From a virus, in the IMG/VR virus record IMGVR_UViG_3300042565_000604, positions 1 through 29,063 of that record: a stretch of 29,063 nt of DNA; one strand, given 5' to 3'. Shown one piece after another: positions 645 to 25,652 of this stretch. How positions within the stretch are numbered: the first letter of the stretch is position 1; each line of letters begins with the position of its first letter. A program made the translations under genes and the position numbers. A model generated the notes under the pieces. The model was not told where the DNA came from. It saw only the letters and a program-made list of their open reading frames with translations, and did no database searches.

Positions 645-2816
645 TCACTCAAATAGTCCAACTTCCTTAAGGTCATCAATCATTGCCTTAACTCGCTCAG
701 CAAGCCCCGCAAGGGTGACGGATGACGTGGCGAACGTGGTTCTTGTTGCCGTGCCAGTTGGGGCTCCGTAGTTATTCCTGGTCACAGGGGGTTTGCCGTA
801 GAAGCTCATCCCTGTATTTGTAAGCGTGAGACGCTCATCACCGGCACACAGACCCAGTTTGTTAGTACCGAAGTACATACCAACCGAGGGCTGCGCTGCA
901 CGAGACAAAGCCGGAGCAGTTTCACTTCCGTCGTTGAAGTAGACGGGGTTCCTGAAGGTGCGAATCCCGTTTGTAGGATCAACACGAACCTCGTAAGCGG
1001 AGGTTCCGAGGGCTGTCATGTTGGGCGAACTCGTGGAGTCGAACATGACATTCTCGATGAACTGGTTGCTAGTACCAGTGTCAACGCCTGCGGAAGCTAG
1101 TTCGCTTCCTTGGTTGCCAATCCAAGTGACGAAGGTGGACTGTACGGATGCAGTGTTAGCAGTGCAGAATATCAGGCGACGAGAGCTGAGAGCGTATGTC
1201 GTTGCCAGCCCAGCGATAGCACCAAAGCAAGTGTTGTAACGCACCGAACCCTTGGTGCATCCACGGGTGACAATAACATCAGCACCCCCTTTGTCTTCGA
1301 TGGTCGTACCATCTGCAAGCAGTGTTCCGAGGTTTCTGAAATGGTTATCAGAAATGCTGAATCCATTGCAGTCGTCCGCACGGATCATGATGCCGCACTG
1401 ACCGCCTGTGTTCCCTGTGATTTCTAGGCTGATGTTGCCATTGCCTATTAGTGTCTCGGCCAGGTAGCCTCTGACACAACCTTGAGCATGGTTGCCAGCA
1501 ATCTTGGAGAATCCAGTGGAGCGCTTGATAGCATTGCCATGGAAGCAGTTGATATGCACATTTCCTTCAACCAGGCTTCTGCATCTGAGGACTCCCGTAG
1601 AGTCGCCACTGACGTAGATACCCAGGTCGCGGCTACCAACGTTTCGGCATCGGAGTACATGCTGCTCCTCGCAGCCATCGACGTAGATCCCTGTATCTCC
1701 GCCTGCGGTTTCCCAGTGAACACCTGCAATTGTGGTAACTTCACTGACTACACAAAGCTTCACACCAGACACAGGGGCGCCGAGCACGGTGTAAGCACCA
1801 CGTATGGATAGACCATCACATGTACCACTACCACCCTGAGTGCCAGCAGGAGCCGGGTACTCAGTACGAAAGGGCACCGAAGTGGATTGCTTCTGGTTCC
1901 TTTGGTCGAATGTGCCGCCTGTCCAAGCGAAAACGATACCATCGGCAGGCACACCTACCCCGTCAGCGGGGACCTGAAAACGTATGATGTCGTTATCCAA
2001 GTCGGATGCAATAAAGACCGCCTCTGGGTCGCATACTACTCTGGTTGATTTAGTGAGGGGAATGAAGACACCCCCCGAATCAACCCCAGTCCCCACGACT
2101 CGATACAGCCCCTTTGGCACAAAGATGTAACCGCCAGTGCTGAATGCTGCAGTCAAAGCCGCAGTATCATCTGCAACCCCATCACCCGCAGCTCCGAAGT
2201 CCTTGATGACGTTTTTGAGATAACGAGTCTCGGGATCCGTTGCGTAATACTGCAGGAAAAGGTATTCCCCAGTGGAGTCGTTGTACTGCAGGCGGAAGGT
2301 TAGACCTTGGCTGCCCACCAGACCCGCCGTGATCCCCGTGATAAGAGGACTTGTTTCAGCTCCAGTTGAATCCTGTAGCTCAAACAAATCATTGTCGTCG
2401 GGGGTTAGCAGGGCCAGTGCCGCCAGATCTACAACCGGCGTGTAGTCCAGAACGAAGGAAACAGCTGCCAACGCAGATTGAGAGAGCGTGACAGCGGTAT
2501 CCACGTCCCCTTGGATGATTTCACTTAGCTGCAACGCCTGTCGAAAGTTCTCATTGAGACTCGTAGGCGTTATGACACTTGCTGTGTAGGTGTTGAGAGG
2601 TTCATCGCCGGGGGGTATCCGACTGATCTCAATGGTCACACCCGCTCCAGGTGCATTGTTGAAGCGGATGACTTGATCATTGAACCACGAGTAAGCCAGC
2701 GTCGGAACACCGTTTACCTTGACTTTGATGTGGTTTTTCCGTATGTAGCCGGGGACCACCGTATAGTCGGTAGTCGTGCCATTGCCTACATAGGTGATTT
2801 GGTAGGGAGTTGTCAT
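645..2816 (-). CDS. Tail fibre / tailspike with beta-helix domain (T7 gp17-like N-terminus)
   Basis: This 723-residue protein probably binds and may degrade host surface polysaccharide. Residues 1-120 match the T7 gp17 N-terminal domain that attaches fibres to the tail: a short beta domain (YQITYVGNGTTTDYTV, IEISRIPPGDEPL) followed by a helix with SLNENFRQ. Around 205-225, DFGAAGDGVADDTAALTAAF is the classic start of a pectate-lyase-3 type right-handed beta-helix, which continues with many G/N/V-rich turns to about residue 600. The C-terminus (TGTATRTTFATSSVTLAGLAERVKAMIDDL) ends in a short helix of a kind common in cyanophage tail proteins and likely used for trimerisation. The start overlaps the stop of the upstream ejection gene by ATGA. 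Catalytic residues were not identified, so enzyme activity is an inference. Confidence 0.88.
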   Translation of the reverse strand: MTTPYQITYVGNGTTTDYTVVPGYIRKNHIKVKVNGVPTLAYSWFNDQVIRFNNAPGAGVTIEISRIPPGDEPLNTYTASVITPTSLNENFRQALQLSEIIQGDVDTAVTLSQSALAAVSFVLDYTPVVDLAALALLTPDDNDLFELQDSTGAETSPLITGITAGLVGSQGLTFRLQYNDSTGEYLFLQYYATDPETRYLKNVIKDFGAAGDGVADDTAALTAAFSTGGYIFVPKGLYRVVGTGVDSGGVFIPLTKSTRVVCDPEAVFIASDLDNDIIRFQVPADGVGVPADGIVFAWTGGTFDQRNQKQSTSVPFRTEYPAPAGTQGGSGTCDGLSIRGAYTVLGAPVSGVKLCVVSEVTTIAGVHWETAGGDTGIYVDGCEEQHVLRCRNVGSRDLGIYVSGDSTGVLRCRSLVEGNVHINCFHGNAIKRSTGFSKIAGNHAQGCVRGYLAETLIGNGNISLEITGNTGGQCGIMIRADDCNGFSISDNHFRNLGTLLADGTTIEDKGGADVIVTRGCTKGSVRYNTCFGAIAGLATTYALSSRRLIFCTANTASVQSTFVTWIGNQGSELASAGVDTGTSNQFIENVMFDSTSSPNMTALGTSAYEVRVDPTNGIRTFRNPVYFNDGSETAPALSRAAQPSVGMYFGTNKLGLCAGDERLTLTNTGMSFYGKPPVTRNNYGAPTGTATRTTFATSSVTLAGLAERVKAMIDDLKEVGLFE

Positions 2817-5800
2817 TTCGGTGCCTGTAGCAGAGAGTTCAAATCGTTAGAGAAGGCCGAGTTTCGGGTAGCGGTTTCGCCTCGCCTAAAGCTTTGACGA
2901 GCCTCCTTCTGCTGAGTAACGCTCTCAGCAAAGACGGGATCTCGATCAAAGAGGATTCCAATCGCCTGCTGCCTGACCTTGTTCCACTGCCGCTGAAGAA
3001 CAGCGAGGTGGGGAGGAGCTTCGCTCGGTTCATCTGGGTCGAATGATCTCTCATCCCAAACGTCCGCCACTTCCCGATACCTAGGATCGGTCACAGTTGT
3101 TTCCATGACTTCACGCAGGCCAATGTCAAACATGATCTTGTGGATCTTCTGTTGATCCTCGGGCGTTAACTTCAGGCCATGAGGTCCCTTCTTGTTGTTG
3201 ACGTAGCCAAACCCATCCTTTTCAAGTTGCCACTTAAGGGGGTCCATGTTTTCAGGAGCCACTCGAATCGGACTGTTTGCGTTGTAGAACCCGCCGAGGT
3301 AGCTGAGTTCGGGTTGACCAGTCAGGGGATCAATAAAGACCGAGCCCTTGTCCACAAGTCCAGCAGTAGCCACCGCCCAAAGCCTATGAGTCTGAGACTC
3401 ATACTCTTTTCGGATGGGGTTGAACATGTAATAGAGGGATCGACGCAAACCAGAGCTGGGAAGAGTGTTGTTGACAAGACCAAGCAACACGCCCCTTGCT
3501 GTTTCTGGATCGCTACGTGGGTCGAGAACCGTCATCAGATCATTCAGGCTTCTCAGGGCGAGCTTGTCCGTAAACGTTGCTGCTCCTGTAAAGGCCAACT
3601 GAGCCATGAGGTTATGCCCAGCGTCAGCCACGCCCGTGTTGATAAGCATGGCAGCATCCCCGGCGACACCCAAAAAGGTGGACACCATCGGAATGGAGCT
3701 GTAGTCATACCAAGTATCACCAATACGGATGTGCATTGGCTTCTTGTTGGTAAGTTGCCATGCTCGCCATTCCCTGCTTCCAGGGGGAGGGCCAAACCCG
3801 GTGAGGTTCCCAGACATGGCGTAGACGAACCCAGAGCCAGCAACTATCGTGCCAAGACCCACTCGACCGTCATAAACAGCCTTTTTGGCCTGAGCACTTA
3901 AGTCGCCCATCTCAGCTTTCGATGCAACGTCCCGATAATCAGCAAGCACCTTCTTGTTGATACCAGGGGCAAACGAAAGCTCATAGCGAAGGATCTCCGC
4001 TGGTGTGTTTACCACGGGAACGAACCATTTGAGGATGGGGACTGAGTTCAGGAATCCAGATAGGTCTTGAACAAATTGCCAGGGCTCCGTTTGGAAGGTG
4101 GAGTTTGAGACCCATTTCTTGAGTTCAGGATCAATGATCCGCCCATCGGGTGCAAACTTCGTGGTGTCAAACTCACGAGTGAACTTCTCGTAGGCCTCAC
4201 GAGTGCTACCAGTAGTAGAAGAAGCCTTATACATGCTGTCCATTGCCGCCCATTGACGAGCTGCTAGGTGTTGGAAGGCTTCGTCTCCTGATGTAAGCAG
4301 TCGTGTGCCGTAGTCGAAGAGAGGGTTCGTAGTGATGAACTTGTGCTGAAGGTTCAGGAAGTTCGCTGCTGCCTTTTCAGCAGGAGTGTTAGCCCGAGCC
4401 AGTAGCTCTTTCAGGGAATCGACCGTGTTAGCCTCAAGCCTGACGTACTTACCCGTGTCCGTATAGCGAAGGTCGCTGGTGTCTTGGCCTCTCATTGCAG
4501 CTTTGGCTAGTTGCCAGGCTTCGGGGAGAGCTTGAACAGCTGCCCTGTAACCGGAAAGAGCCATACGAGCGGAATGAATGTCGCCCTTCATCATCGAGTA
4601 AATCAATGCGGAGGTCGGTCTTTCTATTGCCGTGTAGCTGTTACCTACCAAGTTACGGGTCTGAGTCACAGTACCACTGAAGATACTTTGAATCATGTTT
4701 GTTCCCATATCCTTGATGCCAACGGTGCGTGCCAACTTCCAGAAGGACAATACCTTTTCCGGGTTGCCATCGCTTGCACGAAGCATTGCACCGAGAATGT
4801 TCAGGTCATCACGGACCAAATCTTCTCGACCAGCCGTAATAGCTTCCTGAATGCTGCGAACCTTTGAAATAGCTTCATCGAATCCGCTGGTGCCATTGAC
4901 CTCTGTTGCAAGACTGGTAGTTCCCTTCGCTTGGTCGAGGGGGAGCCCCCATGCCCTTGAAGTGCCCTGACTCATCTCCTGAGTACGCTTACCAAGCTGA
5001 AGCATTCCGATCAGGGAATCCAGCATCTTGTCGGTGGTGTTACCCATCGGCTTGCCTTCTTCTGCAAGATCGGCCATCTGCTTGGACAAACGCCAAGCGC
5101 GATCACCGAGGTCTCGGAAGAAGATACGGGAAGCGATGATACCAGGGTCAGAGAAGATTCGGGTTTCAGTGTCGTCTTTGTTTTTGACGATCTTGATCAA
5201 ACCCTGCTCTTCAAAGCTCTTCGTTGGGTCAGGTACTGCGTAGAAGTCCTTCTCACCTGAAGCCTCCTTGATGCGATTCATCGCCTCGTAAGCTTCGCTG
5301 ATGATCTGCTTGTCTTCAGGACCTGGGTTGGCCAGGGTCTCCCTAACCTTGGGGTTGCTTCCGAAGTCACTGATAGTGTCCTCCACCTTGTCATCCCAAC
5401 GGAGCCATTTAACTTGCGCGTCGGTCAGGCTGGTAGTTGGGTAGTCAGACTTCAGAGCAACATCAAACGATGTGGGATTGAAAGAAGCAGCACGCTCCTG
5501 TGGAAGAAGCGAAAAGTCCTGTGGAGAGTAACCCAGATCAATCCTTTCTTGTATTCCAGCCTGAATATCACGCTGGGTGAAGCCAGGGGTTTGGGTGGTT
5601 CCCTGGGCAGCTCCCCTGACCGAGGGCCAAGTAGGCTCCGTGGTCGAGGGCACAGCCTCTCCCGGTTCAGGCCTGACCGTCTCCGGGGCCTCTGGAGCCC
5701 GTGGGGCCTCAGTAGGACGGGCGGTGACTTCCTCTGTCCCCCCACGGAATGGGGCCGTTTCTAGGGCCTGTGGGCCTGTAGCCTCGTCGGCAGCCCGAGC

Positions 5801-7147
5801 AGCCGCAGGAGCCACAGGAGCAGCAGGAGCACCCTCTTCAGTAGCGCGAGCAGGAGGAACGCCCTCAGCAGCAGCAGAAGGCTCTTCTTGTGGCCTTCGC
5901 AAGGTCTGCGGTTGACCAGCATCGAGGTCTGCATCTGTGTCACGGGGAGCAGTAGCAGCATCAGCAGCTTCTATATCCAGTGGACTCCCAGGAGCCTCAA
6001 GCTCCGCATCGTCAAGGAGACGCAGGTTGATCTCGTCAAAACGTCCCGCCTCTTTTGCGGCATTGTCGAGATTTACGTTTGCATCCTGGTCGATGTATCG
6101 GTTGTAGATTTCCGTGCGAAGAGACAGCTCTTCTTCTGGGGTGACTTTACCCTCTGGAATTTTCTTGGCGATCTCCTCACCACCTGGCAGCTTGCTAACT
6201 GCTTCGCGTGTAAGAGGAGTGTTTTTTGCCACACGAAGACCTGCAAGGCCCCCCATCAGGAAGCCAAGCCCAGCGCCCTCAAGAGCGTTCTTCAGTCGAG
6301 CTGATACTGCTGTGTCATCTTTATCAGATGCCAAGAAGAAAAGAACACTGTCCTGCCACTCTTCGGGCATTACATCCCGAACCAGAGCGGTCAGGTTGCT
6401 GTCCCCCTTCCGGGTCATCAAAAGATCAGCAACAACACCTCCTACTTCTCCGCGAACGAGAGCGCCGACCTTGGTTGTGGCCTGAGGAAGTCGAGCCGTA
6501 ACCCAAGCTCCCGTGCCAATTAGGGATATGAGGCCTTGGCCTAATCGACCACCCGCAGTATTGGGAACCGCAATTCCCGTATCGAGACGCGGTTCGACGT
6601 ACTTGGGGTGGAAGGGATTTCGACTGGGATCCGTGGGGCGACGAAGAACCTTGTCGGTTTTCATCTGGATCAGATCCCCAAGGAAGGCACCCCCTCCAAT
6701 AACACCCTCGGCGCTGCGAACAACACCACCCCCGATAGCTTTCTTCAGGTCAGAAACTGGCCTGGTGATCGTGTTGATCTTGTCGGGGATGGTTTGCTTG
6801 CCTGTGGCCCTGCGCTGTCTCTCGGCTTGTTCAGCTTGTTCAACAGTTACAGGCGCTTTTCCTGCTGCACCACGGATGACGTTGCCCAGCGCGTTACCGG
6901 CGGTTTTCGTGGCCCACTGATACTCATTGTTGATTTTCCTGACTACACGCCCAGCCCCTTCTAAAGGGTTTTGGGTGCGAGCGGGACGTGGCTGAAAACC
7001 CTTGAAGCCCTGAGAAGATTTCTCTGGAAGCTTGGGTCTCGGCTTGAGTTCAGGTTTTTGCCTGAGGGATGCTTTCTCCTCTTCAGACATGCGATCAATC
7101 GGTGCAGGCGCTCCACCAAGACGCAGGAGGGTGTTGATGTTGGACAT
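2813..7147 (-). CDS. Internal virion protein D, gp16-like DNA ejection protein
   Basis: This 1444-residue protein sits in the T7 gene 16 position, between the gp15-like gene and the fibre, and is similar in size to T7 gp16 (1318). In T7, gp16 is stored in the head core and is ejected to form part of the channel across the cell envelope. Visible features are a basic, proline-rich N-terminus (1-65), glycine-rich hydrophobic stretches near 138-160 and 286-305 (GAGLGFLMGGLAGL) that could touch membrane, an acidic Ala/Pro/Glu-rich flexible linker at about 380-525, and a long, mostly helical C-terminal half. The N-terminal lytic transglycosylase domain of T7 gp16 is not visible. A muramidase-like domain lies in the upstream gene instead. 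The start shares one base with the upstream stop (TAATG), which suggests coupled translation. Assignment rests mainly on position, size and composition. Confidence 0.8.
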   Translation of the reverse strand: MSNINTLLRLGGAPAPIDRMSEEEKASLRQKPELKPRPKLPEKSSQGFKGFQPRPARTQNPLEGAGRVVRKINNEYQWATKTAGNALGNVIRGAAGKAPVTVEQAEQAERQRRATGKQTIPDKINTITRPVSDLKKAIGGGVVRSAEGVIGGGAFLGDLIQMKTDKVLRRPTDPSRNPFHPKYVEPRLDTGIAVPNTAGGRLGQGLISLIGTGAWVTARLPQATTKVGALVRGEVGGVVADLLMTRKGDSNLTALVRDVMPEEWQDSVLFFLASDKDDTAVSARLKNALEGAGLGFLMGGLAGLRVAKNTPLTREAVSKLPGGEEIAKKIPEGKVTPEEELSLRTEIYNRYIDQDANVNLDNAAKEAGRFDEINLRLLDDAELEAPGSPLDIEAADAATAPRDTDADLDAGQPQTLRRPQEEPSAAAEGVPPARATEEGAPAAPVAPAAARAADEATGPQALETAPFRGGTEEVTARPTEAPRAPEAPETVRPEPGEAVPSTTEPTWPSVRGAAQGTTQTPGFTQRDIQAGIQERIDLGYSPQDFSLLPQERAASFNPTSFDVALKSDYPTTSLTDAQVKWLRWDDKVEDTISDFGSNPKVRETLANPGPEDKQIISEAYEAMNRIKEASGEKDFYAVPDPTKSFEEQGLIKIVKNKDDTETRIFSDPGIIASRIFFRDLGDRAWRLSKQMADLAEEGKPMGNTTDKMLDSLIGMLQLGKRTQEMSQGTSRAWGLPLDQAKGTTSLATEVNGTSGFDEAISKVRSIQEAITAGREDLVRDDLNILGAMLRASDGNPEKVLSFWKLARTVGIKDMGTNMIQSIFSGTVTQTRNLVGNSYTAIERPTSALIYSMMKGDIHSARMALSGYRAAVQALPEAWQLAKAAMRGQDTSDLRYTDTGKYVRLEANTVDSLKELLARANTPAEKAAANFLNLQHKFITTNPLFDYGTRLLTSGDEAFQHLAARQWAAMDSMYKASSTTGSTREAYEKFTREFDTTKFAPDGRIIDPELKKWVSNSTFQTEPWQFVQDLSGFLNSVPILKWFVPVVNTPAEILRYELSFAPGINKKVLADYRDVASKAEMGDLSAQAKKAVYDGRVGLGTIVAGSGFVYAMSGNLTGFGPPPGSREWRAWQLTNKKPMHIRIGDTWYDYSSIPMVSTFLGVAGDAAMLINTGVADAGHNLMAQLAFTGAATFTDKLALRSLNDLMTVLDPRSDPETARGVLLGLVNNTLPSSGLRRSLYYMFNPIRKEYESQTHRLWAVATAGLVDKGSVFIDPLTGQPELSYLGGFYNANSPIRVAPENMDPLKWQLEKDGFGYVNNKKGPHGLKLTPEDQQKIHKIMFDIGLREVMETTVTDPRYREVADVWDERSFDPDEPSEAPPHLAVLQRQWNKVRQQAIGILFDRDPVFAESVTQQKEARQSFRRGETATRNSAFSNDLNSLLQAPK

Positions 7148-10100
7148 TAGTTACTCGGAACTAGGACAAAGATGTGGGAAGTTGCGGCTCCGTAAATAGA
7201 GTCGCCATTGTAAGTGCCATTGAATAGTCGGGATCCGCCTGAGCGTGCAATAGCAACGTCGTACCCCCTAGAGCCGGAGTTTGTACCATTCCAGCTGCTA
7301 TGTCTAGTTTGGAACACAACTGCTCCCGATGGGATCTGACCTCTGCCAACCGCCGCCTTGTATTGCTGGAGGGACATCTGATTGACAACTGCCTTGCCAT
7401 ACGGGCTATCAAGTTTGACCTGACGGCTACCTGGGATGGGTAAGGACTTCCAGCCAAAGCTGTTGATGAATTGAACAGCAGCTCCTCGCGGATTGTTGCC
7501 TTCATCATTCCCAGTTGCGTAAGGCTGTGGTATTCCATTGGCAGCCAGGGTTTTCAACACGTTGGTCGTACAGCGCCCTGGTAGCACCTTACCGTTTGCA
7601 TCCTTTTCGGAGCTGTAAGTGATTTCTCCACCAAGCTTTTGCAGGGTTGCATTCGTTCGGAATCCCGTGGAGCTATTGCTGGTCTGCTGAGACGATCTGG
7701 AGTCCAAGTAAGAACGACGTGCCTGTTGGAGAGTCTGTCGAACTCGACCACTGCTGATGGTGGCCTTGTTGACTCCATCATTGTCATACTGACCAACTCC
7801 TTTCACGCCTTCAAGGGCGGCCCATTCCCATCCAGCATCATCCACAGCAGCATCAAGGTTGCTGCTTTCACCTTTTATGTAGGCTGATAACGCTTTCCGC
7901 TGTCCGCCAAGGATCCAAGCAGCAGCCAATTTGTCCTGATTCTCGGGGGAGAATTTATCAGACATCTTGAGCCCTGCCTTCTCCATTGCAGCTTCCATGG
8001 TTCCGGGTATGAACTGGTAGCGACCAATGGCATTATTGCCGGCTTTGGCTCTTGCTTGTGCAAAAGTCATCTGACTGAGACCAGCAATACCAGTCCTGCT
8101 TCCTGCTACGGCGTTGTAACCACCAGAGGATTCGCTTTCGCCACTTGCAATCAGGTTCAGGAATGGTCGAAGAACCGATACGGAATCACCCGTACCGCCT
8201 TCTGTTCCTTGATTCAGGCGCTGCTCCCGGTCGAGTGCCGCTTGACGTGCTTCGGCTGCCCGCTCTGACTGGATGCTGCGCAGCCTCTCGATCCGTAACC
8301 GGGACCGACTGACCCTCTGTTGGGGGACATTCGGATGGTTCAGGAGGGAGGCCTCTTGGGGGGCGACGGGGCGGGCTGCACTGGCTGCCGGGTTGCCGAC
8401 ATCAGGGCCTGCAGGGGCCGTCTGGGTGCCTCTGCTGGCGTTCTCCTGTGACCGGACTACCTCAGCCGCTGGGATGCCGCTGGCGGTCGCCACAGCCGTG
8501 ACTCGATCTGGGAGAGGAGTTCCATTACGCAGAGCAGCAATAGAATCATCAATCTCCTTGTCGTTCAAGATCACGTCATTGCGTGTCATGAAGCCATTCA
8601 CGACATCAGGACGCTCACCACGTAGATCCTCGGAGCGACTAGCGGGAACCCTGTTGTTAGGAGCACGAACAGTGATTCGACTTTTGAGATCCCCAGCCGG
8701 CCCCTCAAAGATGAGCTGAGGAGGTTTACCGATACCTTCGACACCGGGAACAGGAACTTCACGAGTGCGAATTTGATAGGCCCTGGACTGGATAGCCTCT
8801 CGCGCATAGCGCGAAGCCTCTTGTCTGATACCGGGGGTTGTAACCGTACCAGGCGGCTGCCTGTTAATCCAATCGACAAGGTGTAACGCGGTTTCCTCGC
8901 CTAGGGTTTCAATCGCATTCTGACCGAAATCTCCAAGCTTTTGGACCGAATTGAATCCAGCCTTTTGGACGATTTCCGTGACGAAGACCTTGCTTGCAAT
9001 CCCCTTAATCGAGGGATACATCTCTTTCACCGTTTTGGAGCCAGCATCAACCCCGCGACGATTCTGGAGATCCCTGGCTTCAGAGCCGGTCAGGATGCCT
9101 TTGGCTTCCATCTCTCCCAGTTCTTCATCGTTTGGGATGAATCCTGTTCTTTGATGGTTCCGCAGGAGGACATCGTACCCATTCTTGGTGTAAGTCAGGG
9201 GACGAGTCTTCAGCTCCATCAGCTGCTCGTTGGCCTTTTCGTTACCAGTGGTCTCGACAATAGATTGCAGACGATCAATCCTGGTTTTATTGGCCTTTTC
9301 GATAGCAGCTGGATCTGCTCCGGCTTCTGTTAGGTCATTCAGGTGATCTACTTCGATGCGGTCAATCAGCTTGTTGACATCATCGGTCTGGGCTTGGTCT
9401 TCAATCCCCTCCTCTTTGGCGATCATGTCAGCAGCAGCTTTGAACGCGGGTGCGTTTTCGCCGTCGCCAACTCGACCAACGCCTGGGTCCGTAGGAGACC
9501 TATCAGCCACCTCCAAACCAGCAAGCATGTCAACGTTACCGTCCGCAACTGCAATGTTTAGCAGCTGCTGAGCAACGATCTTGTTCGCTTCACCCTTACC
9601 ACCTACGAGAGGGGCCAGGAACTGAACTTGACTGTTGTAATACTCGGTCACTTGAGTGGGATTGTTCCAGTCCACCCCCCGGTAGCTAGTGCTCATCCGG
9701 TTAGTGATGTCATCAATCTCGTTCTGCTTCTCGATCTTTCGATCTTCTGTGATGATGTTCCGAGCAAGGGAAGATGTTATACCTCCAATGGACTCCCCCA
9801 GCTCCTCTTGAACGAGCACAGGGTTGATACCTTCTATCCCGAACTTTTCAAAAAGGAAGGCGTTACCGGCCTGCAGAGCTGCCATTGTCCCTGCCGGGCC
9901 TCGTCGGGCCAATGCACGGGGGCTGATCAGCTCGGCGGGGTTCTCGGGGTCGGGGATGACGGGATCTTCTGAGTGGATCCAGACATCGAGCGCCGTGGCC
10001 CAGTTGCCCTTGGCAGCCTGGAGGCGACCCTTCGCCCGCCCGTATGCCCTCCACCCGGCCAGAAGGGGGTTGCCGCGCCTCTGATCCGCCGCTTGGACGG

Positions 10101-10719
10101 GATCGCTGACGGCGAGAGCATCGTTGGAGATGCCCTCCTGCTCAGCAGCATCAGCAAGCGTCCCAGCGGTCGCCTGCATCTGCGCCCGTTGTGTCGGGGT
10201 GAGGTCGATCTGAGAAGCTTCGATAAAACTAAGCGCTGCCTCTTGTTTGACAGCCCCCTCAACCGCCCTCTTTGCAACATCCTGAGTGAGTTTGAGAGCA
10301 GTCTCAGAAATATCCAAGACGTTCTTGAGATTTCTTTCCCTGACTACAGCTTTGTACTGGCGAAGGTTCGACTGAATTGCATCAGATGTCTGACGATCTT
10401 CCTGTCGTTGCTTTAGGCCGAGTGACTGGTTGCGCTGAAACTGCTGATTCTCAAACTTGCGAACCTCTTCAAACTGTTCAATGCGAGATCGAAGAAACTT
10501 TTCATTCGCAGCGTCAGTCTGTTGAGTTACTCGGGCGATGTTCTCAAAGCGAAACTGACTAGCAGCAGCAGCGGCTTCCTGGACGGAATCGGTAGCCCTT
10601 TTGTCTGTTCTTTCTACGAACCGAGCAGTTTGCTCAAGGGACTTGTTAGCAGCCTCTTGCTGCCTGGCAACCACCCCCTTTCGGCTGGGAGCGGCCACCG
10701 TGATTTTGCCTGTTGCCAT
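7147..10719 (-). CDS. Internal virion protein C, gp15-like, with C-terminal muramidase domain
   Basis: This 1190-residue protein is in the T7 gene 15 position. Residues 1-150 are long charged helices, probably coiled coil, and residues 150-800 are mainly helical with no recognised motif. Residues about 853-1010 look like a lambda-endolysin-type (GH104) muramidase or lytic transglycosylase: LNLIASGES with candidate catalytic E861, then GRYQFIPGT, FSPENQDKLAAAWIL and GVGQYDND, in the same order as in lambda R. Residues about 1040-1190 form a second globular domain with GRCTTNVL (C1050), GAVVFQTRH and DVAIARSGG, loosely like a CHAP or NlpC/P60 cysteine hydrolase, though the usual histidine is not in its standard place. 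The likely role is local peptidoglycan opening during DNA entry. A GAGGTG ribosome site lies about 12 bases upstream, and the 48-bp leader contains CAACCAACCCGCAACACA. Confidence 0.85.
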   Translation of the reverse strand: MATGKITVAAPSRKGVVARQQEAANKSLEQTARFVERTDKRATDSVQEAAAAASQFRFENIARVTQQTDAANEKFLRSRIEQFEEVRKFENQQFQRNQSLGLKQRQEDRQTSDAIQSNLRQYKAVVRERNLKNVLDISETALKLTQDVAKRAVEGAVKQEAALSFIEASQIDLTPTQRAQMQATAGTLADAAEQEGISNDALAVSDPVQAADQRRGNPLLAGWRAYGRAKGRLQAAKGNWATALDVWIHSEDPVIPDPENPAELISPRALARRGPAGTMAALQAGNAFLFEKFGIEGINPVLVQEELGESIGGITSSLARNIITEDRKIEKQNEIDDITNRMSTSYRGVDWNNPTQVTEYYNSQVQFLAPLVGGKGEANKIVAQQLLNIAVADGNVDMLAGLEVADRSPTDPGVGRVGDGENAPAFKAAADMIAKEEGIEDQAQTDDVNKLIDRIEVDHLNDLTEAGADPAAIEKANKTRIDRLQSIVETTGNEKANEQLMELKTRPLTYTKNGYDVLLRNHQRTGFIPNDEELGEMEAKGILTGSEARDLQNRRGVDAGSKTVKEMYPSIKGIASKVFVTEIVQKAGFNSVQKLGDFGQNAIETLGEETALHLVDWINRQPPGTVTTPGIRQEASRYAREAIQSRAYQIRTREVPVPGVEGIGKPPQLIFEGPAGDLKSRITVRAPNNRVPASRSEDLRGERPDVVNGFMTRNDVILNDKEIDDSIAALRNGTPLPDRVTAVATASGIPAAEVVRSQENASRGTQTAPAGPDVGNPAASAARPVAPQEASLLNHPNVPQQRVSRSRLRIERLRSIQSERAAEARQAALDREQRLNQGTEGGTGDSVSVLRPFLNLIASGESESSGGYNAVAGSRTGIAGLSQMTFAQARAKAGNNAIGRYQFIPGTMEAAMEKAGLKMSDKFSPENQDKLAAAWILGGQRKALSAYIKGESSNLDAAVDDAGWEWAALEGVKGVGQYDNDGVNKATISSGRVRQTLQQARRSYLDSRSSQQTSNSSTGFRTNATLQKLGGEITYSSEKDANGKVLPGRCTTNVLKTLAANGIPQPYATGNDEGNNPRGAAVQFINSFGWKSLPIPGSRQVKLDSPYGKAVVNQMSLQQYKAAVGRGQIPSGAVVFQTRHSSWNGTNSGSRGYDVAIARSGGSRLFNGTYNGDSIYGAATSHIFVLVPSN

Positions 10720-10767: not shown

Positions 10768-12117
10768 CTAGCCAGGTGGCTTGAAGGCTGTGTAATTGCC
10801 TACGGCGCTTTGAATGCCTTGAAGGATTCCGCTTGCGAGAATACTTCCACCACCAGAAGGAAGCTTCGGAATACTCGATCCCAGACGGGGCCTGGGCGCG
10901 GACATCGGCCTCGATGGAATGAGCGGCTGTAGACCTGGGGTTGCCTGTATCGGCATCGGTTGCAGGAACGGTTGAGGAATCACCGTCCTTGCAACTGGCA
11001 GAGGCTCAGGCAGCTTCAGCGGAACCATCGGGCGAAGCTCACGGTTGGAGCGGGCTTCATTCATCTGGCTTCTGGCTTGGAGGCCGATGTCATCCAGCTG
11101 GTTATTGCTCTGCCAGATAGCCTGACGTTCCTGAGTATTAAGGGATTCAAGGTTCAGGTTGGTCATTCGTGCAGAAGTATCCAAGGAGTTGTAGATCCTT
11201 GCACGATCCATATCTGCCATTTGACCTGCAAGACCTGTGGCATCAGCCAACTTGAATAGCTCAACCTGCTGCTCGCTTCCAAAGAATGCGAGTTCAACAC
11301 CCATCGACCCCAGCATCAGATCCGATCTGTTGAAGGGATCTGCCATCATCCGGGTTGCCGTTGCCCCACTCCTGCCGGAAGCGGCCACCTGAGAGGACTC
11401 GCTGAGCGCCTCTCGACGGGCAACATCCTGCTTGGCCGTGAACTGCTGCATCCGCTTCTCGACCTCCATCTGGAGGGCCTCACCGGAGAAACCAGCCTGC
11501 CTCAGCTCACCTCGGTAGCGGGCCTCCACCTGTTTCGCCTGGATGCGGGCCTGATCCGCCTCAGCATTGAACCGAGCCCGACCTTCCTCTGCTTGAATGT
11601 TGATCCCAGCTCTTTCAAACCTGAGCCGGTCCTTTTCAAAGGAGTAGGCGTTGGATGCGGCTTGTGAAATCAGTCGGGTGTTTTCACTGAAAGTGCGCTC
11701 AGAGGCCTGATACACCCTCAGCTGTTGACTGTAATCCGCCGCTTGCAGGAGTTGGGTTATTTGATAATCCCGCGCCTGAACAGCGTTTTCAGATTTGAAC
11801 TGGATTTCAGCGTTCGTGTCCGCAGCGAGGTAACGAGCCTGCTCCAGTCTGTTCGCCGTATTCCAGTTTTGCAGAGCTATCGACTGATCAATCTTGTGGG
11901 ACAGCCGTGCCGAGTTGACAGCGAAATCGAAATTGAGATTCGAGATCGCCTCGTTGTACTCCCAGTCTTCCAACTGAGAAGCGTAAGTAGAAAGTTGCTG
12001 CCTTTCTGCTGAACGCCGCTGGGCTTGAGCTTGGTCTTCTGCCTGGTTTCTTCCGAGAATACCGGAAGCGACTCCACTGGCAAGACCAAGGCCCGCCATA
12101 ACTACGGGTAGGACCAT
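10768..12117 (-). CDS. Internal virion protein B, gp14-like
   Basis: This 449-residue protein is in the T7 gene 14 position, longer than T7 gp14 (196). The first 25 residues are a small hydrophobic Gly/Ala stretch (VVMAGLGLASGVASGILG). Residues about 25-260 are a very long Gln/Ala/Arg-rich amphipathic helix region, followed by ASGRSGATATRMMADP, a motif style common in gp14-like core proteins. The last 90 residues are proline-rich and end in GILQGIQSAVGNYTAFKPPG. In T7, gp14 leaves the head and enters the outer membrane as part of the ejection channel, and the hydrophobic N-terminus fits that. A good AGGAG site lies inside the end of the tail tube B gene, only 3 bp upstream, so the two are probably translated together. 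Function is inferred from position and composition. Confidence 0.78.
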   Translation of the reverse strand: MVLPVVMAGLGLASGVASGILGRNQAEDQAQAQRRSAERQQLSTYASQLEDWEYNEAISNLNFDFAVNSARLSHKIDQSIALQNWNTANRLEQARYLAADTNAEIQFKSENAVQARDYQITQLLQAADYSQQLRVYQASERTFSENTRLISQAASNAYSFEKDRLRFERAGINIQAEEGRARFNAEADQARIQAKQVEARYRGELRQAGFSGEALQMEVEKRMQQFTAKQDVARREALSESSQVAASGRSGATATRMMADPFNRSDLMLGSMGVELAFFGSEQQVELFKLADATGLAGQMADMDRARIYNSLDTSARMTNLNLESLNTQERQAIWQSNNQLDDIGLQARSQMNEARSNRELRPMVPLKLPEPLPVARTVIPQPFLQPMPIQATPGLQPLIPSRPMSAPRPRLGSSIPKLPSGGGSILASGILQGIQSAVGNYTAFKPPG

Positions 12118-12120
12118 GGT

Positions 12121-14787
12121 TTAACTACTCCTGAGACCTTTAGTTGTGTAAGTACCTTTCCATGTCACCTCTTGAATGTTTACAGGAAGTGGACATGAGC
12201 TGAGGATCCTGAGATCCATGTCATCGCCATCGCAAAGAGTCGGCACTGTCACCTCTCCGATGCGTTTCATGATCAGTTGGCCCAAGGTGTGATCACGAGG
12301 TAGAGCCTGTCCGCAATCCTTTGTGTAAGGATCTCGACCAGGAACAGTGATTGAGGCGCCAAACCCTCCACTGCGGAAGGATCGAATCATCACTCTTCTT
12401 ACCTTGGGCGCATTAGCGACTATCGCCTCTCCATTGCCACCACGTAAGTAGATGTGTTGCATGAGAGCTTCGGCCATAAAGTCATAACCAAGCACCACAT
12501 CGGTTGACCCGACATTCCCAGGAAGGATGAGGTTGCCGCCCTGGTACTCGGGTTCGTAGTAGACAAACTTGTTGGGGCCACTGAGTACAAACACTTTCGG
12601 CGGCTGGCTTGGCGTGTCGTAAAGCGTCCCGGCTACTTGAATGGTAGTTTGGTCTGTCGTCTGGCTGTAGTTCACGTTGAGCGTGAAGTCCATTAGATCC
12701 AGGCGCGGGTTGAAAAGAAACCCTTCAAACTCCACACGACCTGCTGGATCACTGACACCCATGGGGATCCTTAGAAGAATTCTCCTGCTGTTGAAGCGGC
12801 CCACGGCAAACAGAACACTGTCTTCAAAGTACAAGTGCTCGATGTCCATGGGAAGAGTTATCCTGCTCCACGCGGACAACAGACGCTGCCTGCTCTGATC
12901 CTTCCACTGCCAGACGTAGATAGCCTTCGGGTTCTGTCTGCTAGTCAACACAGCAAAACCAAGTTCTTCTTCGATGTCAGCAGTGAAGACACCGCGAGGG
13001 ATGTAGGTTGGAACTTGCAGGCTTACTGAGTTGGGTCGAGCCAGGTTTGGATCATCGTCTGCATTCGGGAACATCTCGACTAATTCGACCCCTGTATTGC
13101 TCTCCACAGCAAGCAGCCAGCTCACTTGGGTTGCCAGGGGTTTCAAGACGGTAGATGTCTTTACCCTTGACGAGACTGTGAGTTTCGCACTGGTAGGGGT
13201 AAAGCCGTCATCGCCTCCACGTAGAGAAAACTGTCGGTCTTCAGCGATGCAGATCAGCCTATCGTTGTAGTCGATTGCGTGTCGAAGAACCGTTCTTGTC
13301 GTCTCACCTGTGTTTACGTCAATCGGGTCGTCAGCGAGAACCTGAATAGCAGTAGTAGGAAAGAAGTTCAGATAGTCACCGGCCTTGCTGGAGATTACGC
13401 TGTCCTCGCTCAACAGTGTGAGTCGATTCAAGTAAAACCCGATTCCAGTGATCTTTCTGTCTACGAACGTCGGCCAAGGCACGGAGGCCAAGGATCCCAC
13501 GGTTCGATCTGTCCACCTTTCGTTGGCGTAACTGGGATTGCTGTAAGTAACGGTGGCCACACTTGTAACAGTGAAGCTGTCGCCGTTGTTTGCAAGAACA
13601 ATGTTCCCATTAGTAAACCCGGATCCAGGGCGGATTGGTTCAACAGCAGTAGGGTGACTGTCGTTGTCTATAGCGAGAACACGCAAACGTAATCCCTTGC
13701 CAGTACCGCCACGAACAAAGAAGGTCTGACCAAGCCAGTAGCGTCCGTTGAACGGACCTGTAGTAGAAACCGAAGTGACGACCCCGGTAACGTTTACAGT
13801 CACAGGAATAGGAGAGATACCATCAAGCGGTCTTACGATCCAAGACCCATCGCCAAGACGCACTATAGCGTGAGGCATTGTGGCGGGTTGAATGGCGTAC
13901 TGCTCTGAAGGTTGGAGGGTTTCAGACCAAGTACCTGCTACTTCGTCGATGGCGGACACACCGTTGTATTCCACCCAATACCCTTCACCTGTGGAGTTGG
14001 TAGGCTTAACCAGCACCGGACGTTGAGCGTAGTAAACGGATGGCAGCTCTTCCACGCTGGAAACTCTGCCGCTGTACCCAACGATTGCATTAGCTGCACG
14101 ACCACCGGAGACCTCTACCAGGATGGGTCGAGTGTCCGTAGGGTCAGTCCATATAATGCTGATGATGTTACCTGTAACCTGTACTGTCCAAGGTCCGCCA
14201 GATGGAAGTGTTGCCACCAAGCTAACAAGGACACCACGGACATTAAGAGATCCAGAAGCAGGAGTAGTGTGCTCCATCACCAAAGTGGAAGCACCTGATG
14301 CCCTGATGGCTACGCGGTAGGTGGTTTCATAGCTCAGAGCCCTCAGCTCGACCCAGGCATGTTTCACCCGGTCTGGAGATGTTGCTGCTGCTTTTGCTGC
14401 TGTGACCGTCCTGTTCAAGACGAAAACAAAGTCACCAGTCTGGAGAACTTCAAGTTCCCCCGGTGCTTTGTGAGTCAGGTAGGTCGAGGCCTGTTGTCCA
14501 ACGGTGTATTGCTCACCGGACAAGGCATCGGAAACGGATGTGATTCCATTTGTGCCTATGTGGATCAAGTAGTTCTCTTGGTCGCCCAACTTGACATTGA
14601 AGTAGGACCCAGTGTTCGACCCAGGTACTTCGGAGATAAACTCAGACCCAGAGCGCTTACTGAGCCCCCATACAAGGTCTGCCATGAAGTTGTCGCAGAC
14701 CCTAACGCTGTTGGGTGATGCTTGGGAATCGATGGCCTCGGACACTCCACCAATGAGAGGCGGAAGTGTTTGTTGAATAGCGCTCAT
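12121..14787 (-). CDS. Tail tubular protein B (gp12-like nozzle)
   Basis: This 888-residue protein forms the tail nozzle below the adaptor ring (T7 gp12 is 794). The N-terminus MSAIQQTLPPLIGGVSEAID, with RVCDNFMADLVWGLSKRSGS soon after, follows the T7 gp12 opening pattern (QSIKNLKGGISQQPD ... GLQKRP). The remainder is beta-rich with repeated short sheets, including TFVDRKITGIGFYLNRLTLL and a long C-terminal beta region, as expected for a propeller-like nozzle protein. It starts 2 bp after the tail tube A stop, with a strong GGAGG site 9 bases before the ATG, so the two tail genes are coupled. No unusual features were seen. Confidence 0.9.
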   Translation of the reverse strand: MSAIQQTLPPLIGGVSEAIDSQASPNSVRVCDNFMADLVWGLSKRSGSEFISEVPGSNTGSYFNVKLGDQENYLIHIGTNGITSVSDALSGEQYTVGQQASTYLTHKAPGELEVLQTGDFVFVLNRTVTAAKAAATSPDRVKHAWVELRALSYETTYRVAIRASGASTLVMEHTTPASGSLNVRGVLVSLVATLPSGGPWTVQVTGNIISIIWTDPTDTRPILVEVSGGRAANAIVGYSGRVSSVEELPSVYYAQRPVLVKPTNSTGEGYWVEYNGVSAIDEVAGTWSETLQPSEQYAIQPATMPHAIVRLGDGSWIVRPLDGISPIPVTVNVTGVVTSVSTTGPFNGRYWLGQTFFVRGGTGKGLRLRVLAIDNDSHPTAVEPIRPGSGFTNGNIVLANNGDSFTVTSVATVTYSNPSYANERWTDRTVGSLASVPWPTFVDRKITGIGFYLNRLTLLSEDSVISSKAGDYLNFFPTTAIQVLADDPIDVNTGETTRTVLRHAIDYNDRLICIAEDRQFSLRGGDDGFTPTSAKLTVSSRVKTSTVLKPLATQVSWLLAVESNTGVELVEMFPNADDDPNLARPNSVSLQVPTYIPRGVFTADIEEELGFAVLTSRQNPKAIYVWQWKDQSRQRLLSAWSRITLPMDIEHLYFEDSVLFAVGRFNSRRILLRIPMGVSDPAGRVEFEGFLFNPRLDLMDFTLNVNYSQTTDQTTIQVAGTLYDTPSQPPKVFVLSGPNKFVYYEPEYQGGNLILPGNVGSTDVVLGYDFMAEALMQHIYLRGGNGEAIVANAPKVRRVMIRSFRSGGFGASITVPGRDPYTKDCGQALPRDHTLGQLIMKRIGEVTVPTLCDGDDMDLRILSSCPLPVNIQEVTWKGTYTTKGLRSS

Positions 14788-23079: not shown

Positions 23080-24690
23080 TCAAAACGGATCTGCATCTGA
23101 TGCAATCGGGTTCTGGCGGATGGAAGCAGTGGAATCCTCCTCCAGTCTGCCCGTCAGCACGTTGTAACGGAGCCCACAGGCTGGCCCAGTCTTCCCATTG
23201 AAACGATTCTTAAGAACCCGCACGAAGCTGTGGTCCTCCCCAGCGCTCAGATTGCGCTCAAGGGCGATCACCATATCCGAGAGCTGGACAATCGAGTGCG
23301 AGCCCCTGAGGTGCCCCAGGCTGACCTGCTGGCCGTCCTCGTGCCCCCTGTCGCCCTGAGGACGCCGGAGGTGGCTGATGAGGAGCATCCCTACCCCTGT
23401 CTCCTCCACGAAAGACCGCAGGCGGGTCATTGTGACATCGATCAGTTTGCGCTCGTCATGGGTCTCGTTGCCAGACATGAGGATTGAGAGGTGGTCGAGG
23501 ATGATCCACTTCACCTCCTTGGCTAGGGCCATGAATCTGCAGTCTGCAATAACTGCATCTGGATCCACCGAGCCAAAGCCGTCACGCAAGAACACCCGAC
23601 CAGTTCCTAGAGATACATCAAAGGCATCTCGCAGTTCAGATTCGGGAAGGCTGTTGTCAATGTGAAGAGGCCTATTGGCTTTCACCGACATCAGCCGCAG
23701 AGTTGTTCTTTGCAGGCTTTCCTCAAGAGCGATGTAACCGACACTCTGGTTTTGATCGACCAAGTATTGGGCTACTTCTCCGCAGAACGTGGACTTACCA
23801 ACGCCGGAGCCAGCCGTGACTGTGACAAGCTCCCTGTACCTAAGACCGCCAGTAACACTGTCGAGACCAGCGTAAGGCCAAGAAGCGTCCCTACCACGTA
23901 ATGGGCGAATTGCCAGATCAAATAGCTCTCTCCCGTCGATGACGGTTTTAGGGCTGTACTGCTTTTTGTTGAAGAGGGCCTGTCGAATCGCTTCTGTGTC
24001 TTTTTTGACAAGGGCCTCATTGGCGTCTTTGTAGGTATCGATTCGAGCAATGTAGAGTTTGTCGTGCGGGAACAAGGTCGCACAGTCTTGCACTGCCTCG
24101 ATACCTGCCTCGTCATTGTCGAAGAAGAGAACGATCTCTTCAAAGCCCATTAGCCACTTCAACTGATGCTGAAGCGCTTTCTTGGCTGAGTTTGCTCCAC
24201 CCGGAAGGGACACAACGGGCCATGTATTCCTTGTCTGATAGACGGAGAGGCAGTCGATCTCCCCTTCCGTGATGACAATGGCTTTACCTTGGCCCCAGAG
24301 CTGCTGACCAAACAACGTGTGATCAGTGTTCTTTCCGTACCACTTGAACTCCTTCTTGGTATCTCTACTTTTGAAGGCGACCAGTTGACCGGCTGTTGTG
24401 TAGTAGGGGAATCCGATTGTTCGAGTGTCTGAATCAACGCGGACATTGAACTTCTTGCAAGTCTCCTCTGTAATGCCTCTGGTCCTTAAGGGAATAATTT
24501 CACCAGGGAAATCCATGGACAAAGATGCGTTGGTGTACTTGAGGCTTGTGGAGTAATCGTCTGTGGCTGCTGTATGACGACCACAGCTGTAACAGTGTTC
24601 ATGACCATCGGAGTAGAGAGAATTGGCATCGCTGCTTCCGCACTCAGGACATGCCTGATGGCAGATGAATTCTGAGGTCGATTCTCTCAT
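23080..24690 (-). CDS. Bifunctional primase-helicase (T7 gp4-like)
   Basis: This 536-residue protein (from the ATG at 24690) unwinds DNA and makes RNA primers. A four-cysteine zinc motif (CPECGSSD ... HCYSCGRH) lies near residues 14-37. The TOPRIM primase core has IVITEGEIDCLS with the metal-binding Glu and FFDNDEAG with the DxD. The RecA-like hexameric helicase domain has Walker A TAGSGVGKST, LEESLQRT, Walker B WIILDHLSIL, and ISHLRRPQGD. The acidic-aromatic C-terminus ends DADPF, like the T7 gp4 tail that contacts the polymerase. The ATG overlaps the upstream fusion gene as ATGA. An upstream in-frame GTG at 24699 is possible. Confidence 0.96.
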   Translation of the reverse strand: MRESTSEFICHQACPECGSSDANSLYSDGHEHCYSCGRHTAATDDYSTSLKYTNASLSMDFPGEIIPLRTRGITEETCKKFNVRVDSDTRTIGFPYYTTAGQLVAFKSRDTKKEFKWYGKNTDHTLFGQQLWGQGKAIVITEGEIDCLSVYQTRNTWPVVSLPGGANSAKKALQHQLKWLMGFEEIVLFFDNDEAGIEAVQDCATLFPHDKLYIARIDTYKDANEALVKKDTEAIRQALFNKKQYSPKTVIDGRELFDLAIRPLRGRDASWPYAGLDSVTGGLRYRELVTVTAGSGVGKSTFCGEVAQYLVDQNQSVGYIALEESLQRTTLRLMSVKANRPLHIDNSLPESELRDAFDVSLGTGRVFLRDGFGSVDPDAVIADCRFMALAKEVKWIILDHLSILMSGNETHDERKLIDVTMTRLRSFVEETGVGMLLISHLRRPQGDRGHEDGQQVSLGHLRGSHSIVQLSDMVIALERNLSAGEDHSFVRVLKNRFNGKTGPACGLRYNVLTGRLEEDSTASIRQNPIASDADPF

Positions 24691-25652
24691 TGGAACCACT
24701 CGTTAGGAACGAAGTTGTAATGAGCCCATTCAAACCCATGTGCCTCGGCCCACTCCGCATAGGTTGTTTCCGAATCCTTGCTAAGCAAGTTGCGGGGGTT
24801 CTGGAAGACCAGGCGAATGTCAAGCTCGGGATGCGCTTCTTTGACCGCCAGCATTTTACGACGATCTTCTGGCTTGAACCAACCCTTGGTCTCAAGGATC
24901 ACACCGTTAGGCAGAACGAAATCAGGGATGTACTCCGATTGAATTGTGTAGGGCAGCTTGAGTGATTCGTACTCAAAGGAGTGGTCGTTAAGATCCAGCC
25001 ATTTGGCAACCCTTTCTTCAAGCTTGGACCTGTAGCGACTATCGGGCGATGCCACTGAAAGGTCCTCCTCCATGCCCGCAGTAGCAGGAGATTCACCAGA
25101 AGGCTCTGATGCTGCTACTGCTGCTGGTTTGGCTTGAACAGGCTCTTGATTGCCCTCCTCGGTGCCATTGAAGATAGAAGCAACAGTCCGTGACGTTATC
25201 TCCTCAGCTTCCTTTTGAGGCCCAGACACCAGCTTGAGGATCTGAGCACCCATCACCTTCATGCTGCAGCCAACCTTATTCCCGTAGATATAGGGCTTCA
25301 GGTCGATGATGAGCTTGACCTCGGTGCCCGCCCAGATGCCGGTGTGTATGTCGATGGGATTCCCTTCCGTATCGACCCAGGGGAACATCGGGGGGTTGTT
25401 AGGCCCGGCGTAGCCGTATTTCACGAAGCCGTTCTCTTCCCACTTTGGAAGTGCTTTTTCGTGACGCTTGCCCTCAAACTTGGCTTCACCCCATGCGAGA
25501 CCTTTTTCGTAGTATTCGTTGAAGGTGGAAAGATTCTCCCGTGGGATCTTGAAGCAGATGGTGCAGTTGTTGTATCTGCCACGAGGCTTAAGGGCGTTGG
25601 TGTAGCCCTCAAGGGTTGTGGTGATTACGAATCGGTTGGAATTGGAAGACAT
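24687..25652 (-). CDS. Fused SSB (gp2.5-like) and endonuclease I (gp3-like)
   Basis: One open frame of 321 residues carries two proteins that are separate in T7. Residues 1-148 resemble gp2.5 SSB: NNCTICFKIPRENL, then GTEVKLIIDLKPYIYGNKVG and CSMKVMGAQILKLVSG, aligning with the gp2.5 stretch that reads KLKVKYSLVPYKWNTAVG and continues similarly. Residues 149-204 are an acidic, Ala/Ser/Pro-rich linker. Residues 205-321 are endonuclease I, the Holliday-junction resolvase: SKLEERV, LPYTI, YIPDFVLPNGVILETKG, HPELDIRLVFQNPR. The predicted catalytic residues E212, D244, E254 and K256 match T7 E20, D55, E65 and K67. An internal ATG at 25073 (M194) lacks a good ribosome site. The leader is C/A-rich without Shine-Dalgarno. 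Confidence 0.92.
   Translation of the reverse strand: MSSNSNRFVITTTLEGYTNALKPRGRYNNCTICFKIPRENLSTFNEYYEKGLAWGEAKFEGKRHEKALPKWEENGFVKYGYAGPNNPPMFPWVDTEGNPIDIHTGIWAGTEVKLIIDLKPYIYGNKVGCSMKVMGAQILKLVSGPQKEAEEITSRTVASIFNGTEEGNQEPVQAKPAAVAASEPSGESPATAGMEEDLSVASPDSRYRSKLEERVAKWLDLNDHSFEYESLKLPYTIQSEYIPDFVLPNGVILETKGWFKPEDRRKMLAVKEAHPELDIRLVFQNPRNLLSKDSETTYAEWAEAHGFEWAHYNFVPNEWFQ

Follow-up and report, generated by a model that had tools for sequence, protein, structure and literature searches.

The virus record IMGVR_UViG_3300042565_000604 of IMG/VR, whose 29,063 bases are referred to here as the window, encodes a predicted ejection (internal virion) protein that occupies the position of T7 gp15 and carries two different, probably wall-related domains at its C-terminus. 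The protein comprises 1190 residues in a single open frame (7147-10719; this and all other window features described here lie on the minus strand). Its first domain, D1 (residues 848-1012; 7684-8178), is a lysozyme domain of the lambda-R/GH104 type according to family search, profile and model. D2 (residues about 1027-1190; 7150-7641) follows directly behind it, belongs to phrog_13530 and is predicted to adopt a papain-like fold. We propose, at what we judge to be even chances, that D1 cuts glycan while D2 attaches to the stem peptides and anchors D1 to the wall. A virion protein combining two wall activities is already known in the baseplate hub of cyanophage A-1(L) (PMC10966104). As far as we have seen, the pairing of D1 and D2 on an ejection protein and a D2 family with a histidine-less site are new, and no description of D2 was found in the open-licence literature.

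D1 is a lambda-type lysozyme domain

A preliminary description of this DNA, made from the sequence alone, had predicted a lambda-R-type muramidase near the C-terminus of the gp15-like protein with Glu861 as its active site, and both the domain type and the place of this Glu are supported. The D1 family profile matches lambda lysozyme at 8e-6 (hmmsearch), and the AlphaFold model of D1 (predicted local distance difference test, pLDDT, 94.2) has the lambda lysozyme fold and its catalytic-Glu position. The model superposes on lambda lysozyme with VIA Z 11.3 (root-mean-square deviation, rmsd, 3.6 over 138) and Z 10.0, with a Foldseek value of 7.5e-3 for 1am7, while Slt-type enzymes score clearly lower (Z 6.1 and below). 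Lambda R itself acts as a free endolysin and is not part of an ejected protein. The predicted catalytic acid Glu861 (codon 8137-8139) sits in a GESES motif, aligns with lambda Glu19 and is invariant in all 53 rows of the alignment and in 13/13 of a smaller set. Members of the D1 family are stand-alone lysozymes, tail proteins and C-termini of podovirus gp15 proteins. GH104 enzymes are lytic transglycosylases, and therefore the reaction of D1 may be the same as that of the T7 SLT domain despite the different family.

The best structural match of the D1 model is the baseplate hub gp15 of A-1(L) (8kea; Foldseek 2.7e-5, VIA Z 13.9, rmsd 4.1 over 164), in which several wall domains are likewise joined in a single virion protein, two of them with demonstrated activity (PMC10966104). 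It differs in being a myovirus hub and is absent among the D2 matches listed. The accessible part of that report ascribes activity to the endoglucanase domain and the peptidase domain and not to the lysozyme domain (PMC10966104), which would suit a degenerate D1 retained for binding, but given the invariance of Glu861 in 53/53 rows we consider such a degeneration very improbable.

The wall enzyme was not moved from gp16 to gp15

The gp16-like internal virion protein (2813-7147; 1444 residues) belongs to phrog_6651 (1.3e-111) and shows no SLT match in Pfam, while the same library detects SLT in the T7 gp16 control at 1.7e-31. Throughout the window only one sub-threshold SLT match occurred, inside the gp15 lysozyme domain, and the Pfam and whole-window searches together reject an SLT domain hidden in the gp16-like protein. 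The earlier statement that this protein lacks the transglycosylase thus holds. Since no domain above the Pfam cut-off, SLT included, is found in the gp15- or gp16-position proteins of Syn5 and P-SSP7, the absence of SLT from gp16 is shared with relatives.

The same description had concluded that the wall-cutting domain had moved from gp16 to gp15. This is not the case, because the SLT of T7 and the GH104-type domain of the window are different families, and because related contigs often have GH104 at the C-terminal end of gp15 and K1-5 has a Phage_lysozyme domain (Pfam) at the equivalent place. We compared 29 loci bearing a tail nozzle gene, which consist of results of the D1 or D2 searches plus three reference phages and are not a census; the IMG/VR list for D1 comprised the best 80 matches. 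Within this sample, gathered by D1/D2 search, 18 loci have D1 only, 7 have D2 only, 3 have neither (Syn5, S-CBP42 and P-SSP7), and the window alone has both. Hydrolases on gp15 were also known before: Swanson et al. (2022) described hydrolase swapping between gp16 and gp15 (PMC8954989). K1-5/K1E gp35, reviewed as an instance of domain swapping (PMC8954989), resembles the window protein in that a wall enzyme sits close to the C-terminus of a protein at the gp15 position, but the enzyme is of the Phage_lysozyme family (PF00959) instead of GH104, and neither the D1 nor the D2 profile matches it.

The closest named relative of D1 is the C-terminal GH104-type domain of ORF45 (968 residues; L005:6586-9492) of the freshwater cyanopodovirus S-SRP02 (MW822601), which is 44% identical and has the same gene position, but this protein lacks D2. 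In the literature ORF45 is annotated as a lysis gene for an N-acetylmuramoyl-L-alanine amidase (PMC8790148); given its gp15 position and its GH104-type end, this annotation looks mistaken. In Syn5, gp44 (L002:4446-6956) has a sub-threshold Phage_lysozyme2 match near its C-terminus (E 0.013), which hints that a wall enzyme is retained on gp15 in marine T7-like cyanophages as well. In another locus the gp15-position protein (L070:4568-8215; 1215 residues) continues for about 240 residues after D1, and this extension is not D2.

D2 has a predicted papain-like fold but no conserved histidine

The preliminary description had assigned the second domain to the cysteine peptidases or amidases. The fold and the cysteine of this assignment stand, while the catalytic histidine and a CHAP or NlpC profile match are missing. 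D2 of the window matches phrog_13530 at 2.9e-30, and the motifs GRCTTNVL, GAVVF and DVAIARSGG quoted in that description are in place, with GRCTT at 1048 (holding Cys1050), GAVVF at 1132 and DVAIARSGG at 1154. No Pfam family scored above cut-off for this D2, and NCBIfam returned nothing for the window protein. The Pfam profiles CHAP and NLPC_P60 had no match in the window, with positive controls detected, and both are absent among the families listed for 32 D2 members at E<=1. Membership in a Pfam or NCBIfam family was rejected, as Big_3_5, G-patch and similar matches in these 32 members are sub-threshold and chance-like.

Structure prediction, suggested in that description as a check, matched D1 to lambda lysozyme (GH104-type) and D2 to papain-like hydrolases. 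The AlphaFold model of D2 (pLDDT 87.6) superposes best on the endolysin Lys2972 (VIA Z 10.5, rmsd 3.0 over 125) and on a Bacteroides N-acetylmuramoyl-L-alanine amidase (4h4j; Z 8.8), followed by Tse1, Tae4, CHAPK and RipA at Z 6-7.4, mostly papain-like proteins. The sole strong Foldseek match in BFVD is a family member from syn9. On this model, D2 has the fold of papain-like peptidoglycan peptidases.

Conservation was evaluated in 46 distinct full D2 segments, with duplicates and fragments under 135 residues dropped. Cys1050 (codon 7570-7572), Asp1072, Arg1078, Trp1143 and Asp1154 (codon 7258-7260) are invariant in all 46. Cys1050 corresponds to model residue 39, where the core helix 39-49 starts; the gp14-, gp15- and gp16-like proteins contain no other Cys. 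No column of D2 holds a conserved His: H1140 is His in 29/46 segments, residue 1153 is mostly Y/N/F and His in 5/46, and the best His column of a smaller alignment reaches 18/32. A conserved replacement His was also rejected, since H1140 and H1153 are not complementary and several members have neither.

CHAPK cannot do without its catalytic His, which is part of beta-strand C (PMC4126393); that of RipA lies on beta-3 (PMC6628586). We take the YDVAIA strand of D2 as the probable equivalent. Strand parity places Asp1154 at the His site, with Asp1154 and the small Ala1156 on one face like His and Gly in Lys2972, and His101 of Lys2972 meets Asp in 20 of 46 pairwise alignments, Asn in 12, Ala in 9, His and Ile in 2 each, and no motif in 1. 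Asp1154 probably lies at or next to the usual position of the catalytic His, the pairwise alignments being split over whether 1153 or 1154 corresponds to His101. Whichever register applies, D2 has no conserved histidine and so falls outside the canonical Cys-His hydrolases. It shares the papain-like fold and a core helix that begins with Cys with the CHAP/NlpC-P60/Amidase_5 peptidases (Lys2972, LysK, RipA), but differs from them in the missing conserved His and the missing profile match.

D2 occurs in cyanophages and in Myxococcaceae MAG proteins with PG-binding domains

D2 was detected in 17 of 50,697 phage records, all named Synechococcus phage or cyanophage. The seven of these whose regions were inspected are Kyanoviridae, with D2 in a large protein beside the gp26/gp51 genes. 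Two overlapping scans of IMG/VR gave 45 and 53 loci, the plasmid collection none at E<=1e-3, and the genome collection (84,980 species) two loci, both in Myxococcaceae metagenome-assembled genomes (MAGs). One of the MAG proteins combines SLT, PG_binding_1 and D2 (L149, 3449-4903), the other two PG_binding_1 domains and D2 (L148, 6522-8420). Elsewhere, D2 follows Phage_lysozyme2 in three loci (L022, L174, L189). It is also carried by the cyanomyophage proteins S-BM3 SBM3_00043, where it follows Glucosaminidase, and P-TIM40 gp020, where GH104 stands in front as in the window; both phages differ from the window phage in their contractile tails and in the location of the gene beside gp26/gp51, and S-BM3 in having Glucosaminidase instead of GH104. 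A single-origin clade of the podovirus D2s received p 0.083 in the approximately unbiased (AU) test.

In three contigs of 58-130 kb (L023, L024, L025) D2 is found near the C-terminus of a 1289-residue protein (L023:2737-6606), which looks tape-measure-like, with long hydrophobic stretches rich in glycine and alanine.

D2 as a probable gripping domain or a possible enzyme

From the computed fold families, residue conservation, architecture and context we infer the virion location, tunnel, substrates and activities as follows. By analogy with the T7 model (PMC8954989), copies of the gp15-position protein would enter the periplasm after adsorption and assemble a tunnel. The C-terminal D1, judging from its fold and its Glu861, would cut the glycan strands around this tunnel, and D2 would engage wall peptides as its likely substrate and keep D1 on the wall. 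Retaining its thiol without the Cys-His machinery, D2 would not act as a standard CHAP/NlpC cutter. The company in which D2 occurs supports a role at the wall, namely SLT and PG_binding_1 in the MAG proteins, Glucosaminidase in S-BM3, Phage_lysozyme2, and GH104 in P-TIM40. RipD shows by precedent that a papain-like domain can become a peptidoglycan binder (PMC6628586).

Several results weigh against gripping by D2 beside a glycan cutter. A pure binder would have no need of an invariant Cys, and gp15 contains no other. A search with the D1 profile found no glycan-cutting domain in the seven D2-only podovirus-like gp15 proteins, nor did full-length Pfam searches of four of them (L014, L017, L018, L157) or Pfam searches of two gp16-like proteins (L014, L018), which would fit D2 as the cutter in these loci. 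The rule that D2 always stands behind a glycosidase was rejected, as at most 9/39 upstream stretches of D2 show a recognised glycan-cutting domain; this figure is an upper bound from Pfam tallies plus two added GH104 rows, with possible overlap between members. The fold assignment has its own weak points: Foldseek found no PDB match of D2 at E<=0.001 (best 0.019), hhalign of D2 against Lys2972 gave nothing, and VIA Z values near 8 are within reach of unrelated models.

A less probable, though serious, possibility is that D2 is a thiol enzyme with a non-standard site formed by Cys1050 and Asp1154 together with the invariant Asp1072, Arg1078 and Trp1143, so that gp15 would cut both glycan and peptide. 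These five residues are retained in 46/46 phage and bacterial members despite changing neighbours, Cys1050 starts the core helix, the nearest folds are peptidoglycan peptidases and amidases, and D2 is the only recognised wall-type domain in the seven podovirus-like gp15 proteins. Moreover, one cyanophage hub, that of A-1(L), is known to have two hydrolytic activities (PMC10966104). Against an enzyme speaks the missing conserved His, since exchange of His117 to Ala abolishes the activity of LysK (PMC4126393). Of the two wall-cutting activities postulated in the preliminary description, that of D1 agrees with its GH104-type domain, while that of D2 is weakened by the lack of a conserved histidine, a residue essential in this CHAP enzyme. 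In its most far-reaching form, D2 would represent a new class of papain-fold peptidoglycan enzymes with Cys and Asp but without His, found both in entry proteins of cyanophages and in a wall enzyme of bacterial origin, and would give gp15 two cutting activities; we regard this as rather unlikely. To our knowledge, no papain-fold enzyme works with Cys and Asp alone, which also counts against a thiol enzyme. Of a domain gripping wall peptides and a Cys-Asp enzyme, we somewhat favour the former.

A structural or assembly role of D2 in the ejection apparatus or baseplate, without wall contact, would agree with the range of proteins that carry it, which includes ejection proteins, a tape-measure-like protein and cyanomyophage proteins encoded beside gp26/gp51. 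Such a role is improbable in view of the two Myxococcaceae MAG proteins, both of which pair D2 with PG-binding domains and one also with SLT.

How podoviruses get through the cyanobacterial wall is not well understood, and in T7-like cyanophages the wall enzymes frequently lack an assignment, as in Syn5 and P-SSP7. Our finding puts a lysozyme-type domain on the predicted tunnel protein of one lineage. D2 in turn is an unnamed family with strong conservation, whose members connect podoviruses with cyanomyoviruses, a tape-measure-like protein and myxobacterial MAG proteins. If D2 were catalytic without His, a well-studied fold would gain a new type of active site; if it only binds, it would be a module for wall targeting and open to direct tests.

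Genome context

The order on the minus strand is RNA polymerase, DNA metabolism, portal, capsid, tail tube, nozzle, gp14-like, gp15-position, gp16-like and tail fibre, and is T7-like. As for T7 gp15, the gene for the D1-D2 protein lies between the gp14-like gene (10768-12117), assigned by a weak T7_gp14 match (E 0.0085), and the gp16-like gene; the T7 gp12-like tail nozzle gene (12121-14787), assigned by a library match, served as synteny marker. The N-terminal 845 residues of the gp15-position protein matched only the window itself in a phmmer search of the collected loci, and the whole protein as query gave no match in IMG/VR. Relatives of the gp16-like protein are nearly all marine T7-like cyanophages (34/41 records begin with Synechococcus, Cyanophage or Prochlorococcus), which suggests a cyanobacterial host. 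Since no terminase was identified among the window proteins scanned, the record is probably a fragment.

The tail fibre (645-2816) has a T7-type N-terminus followed by a pectate-lyase-like domain. In T7 the single-stranded DNA-binding protein and the endonuclease are encoded by two genes. In the window a single frame of 321 residues (24687-25652) comprises a Gp2.5-like single-stranded DNA-binding region (4-191; phrog_112, 8e-9) and an endonuclease (204-320; phrog_945, 4e-47).

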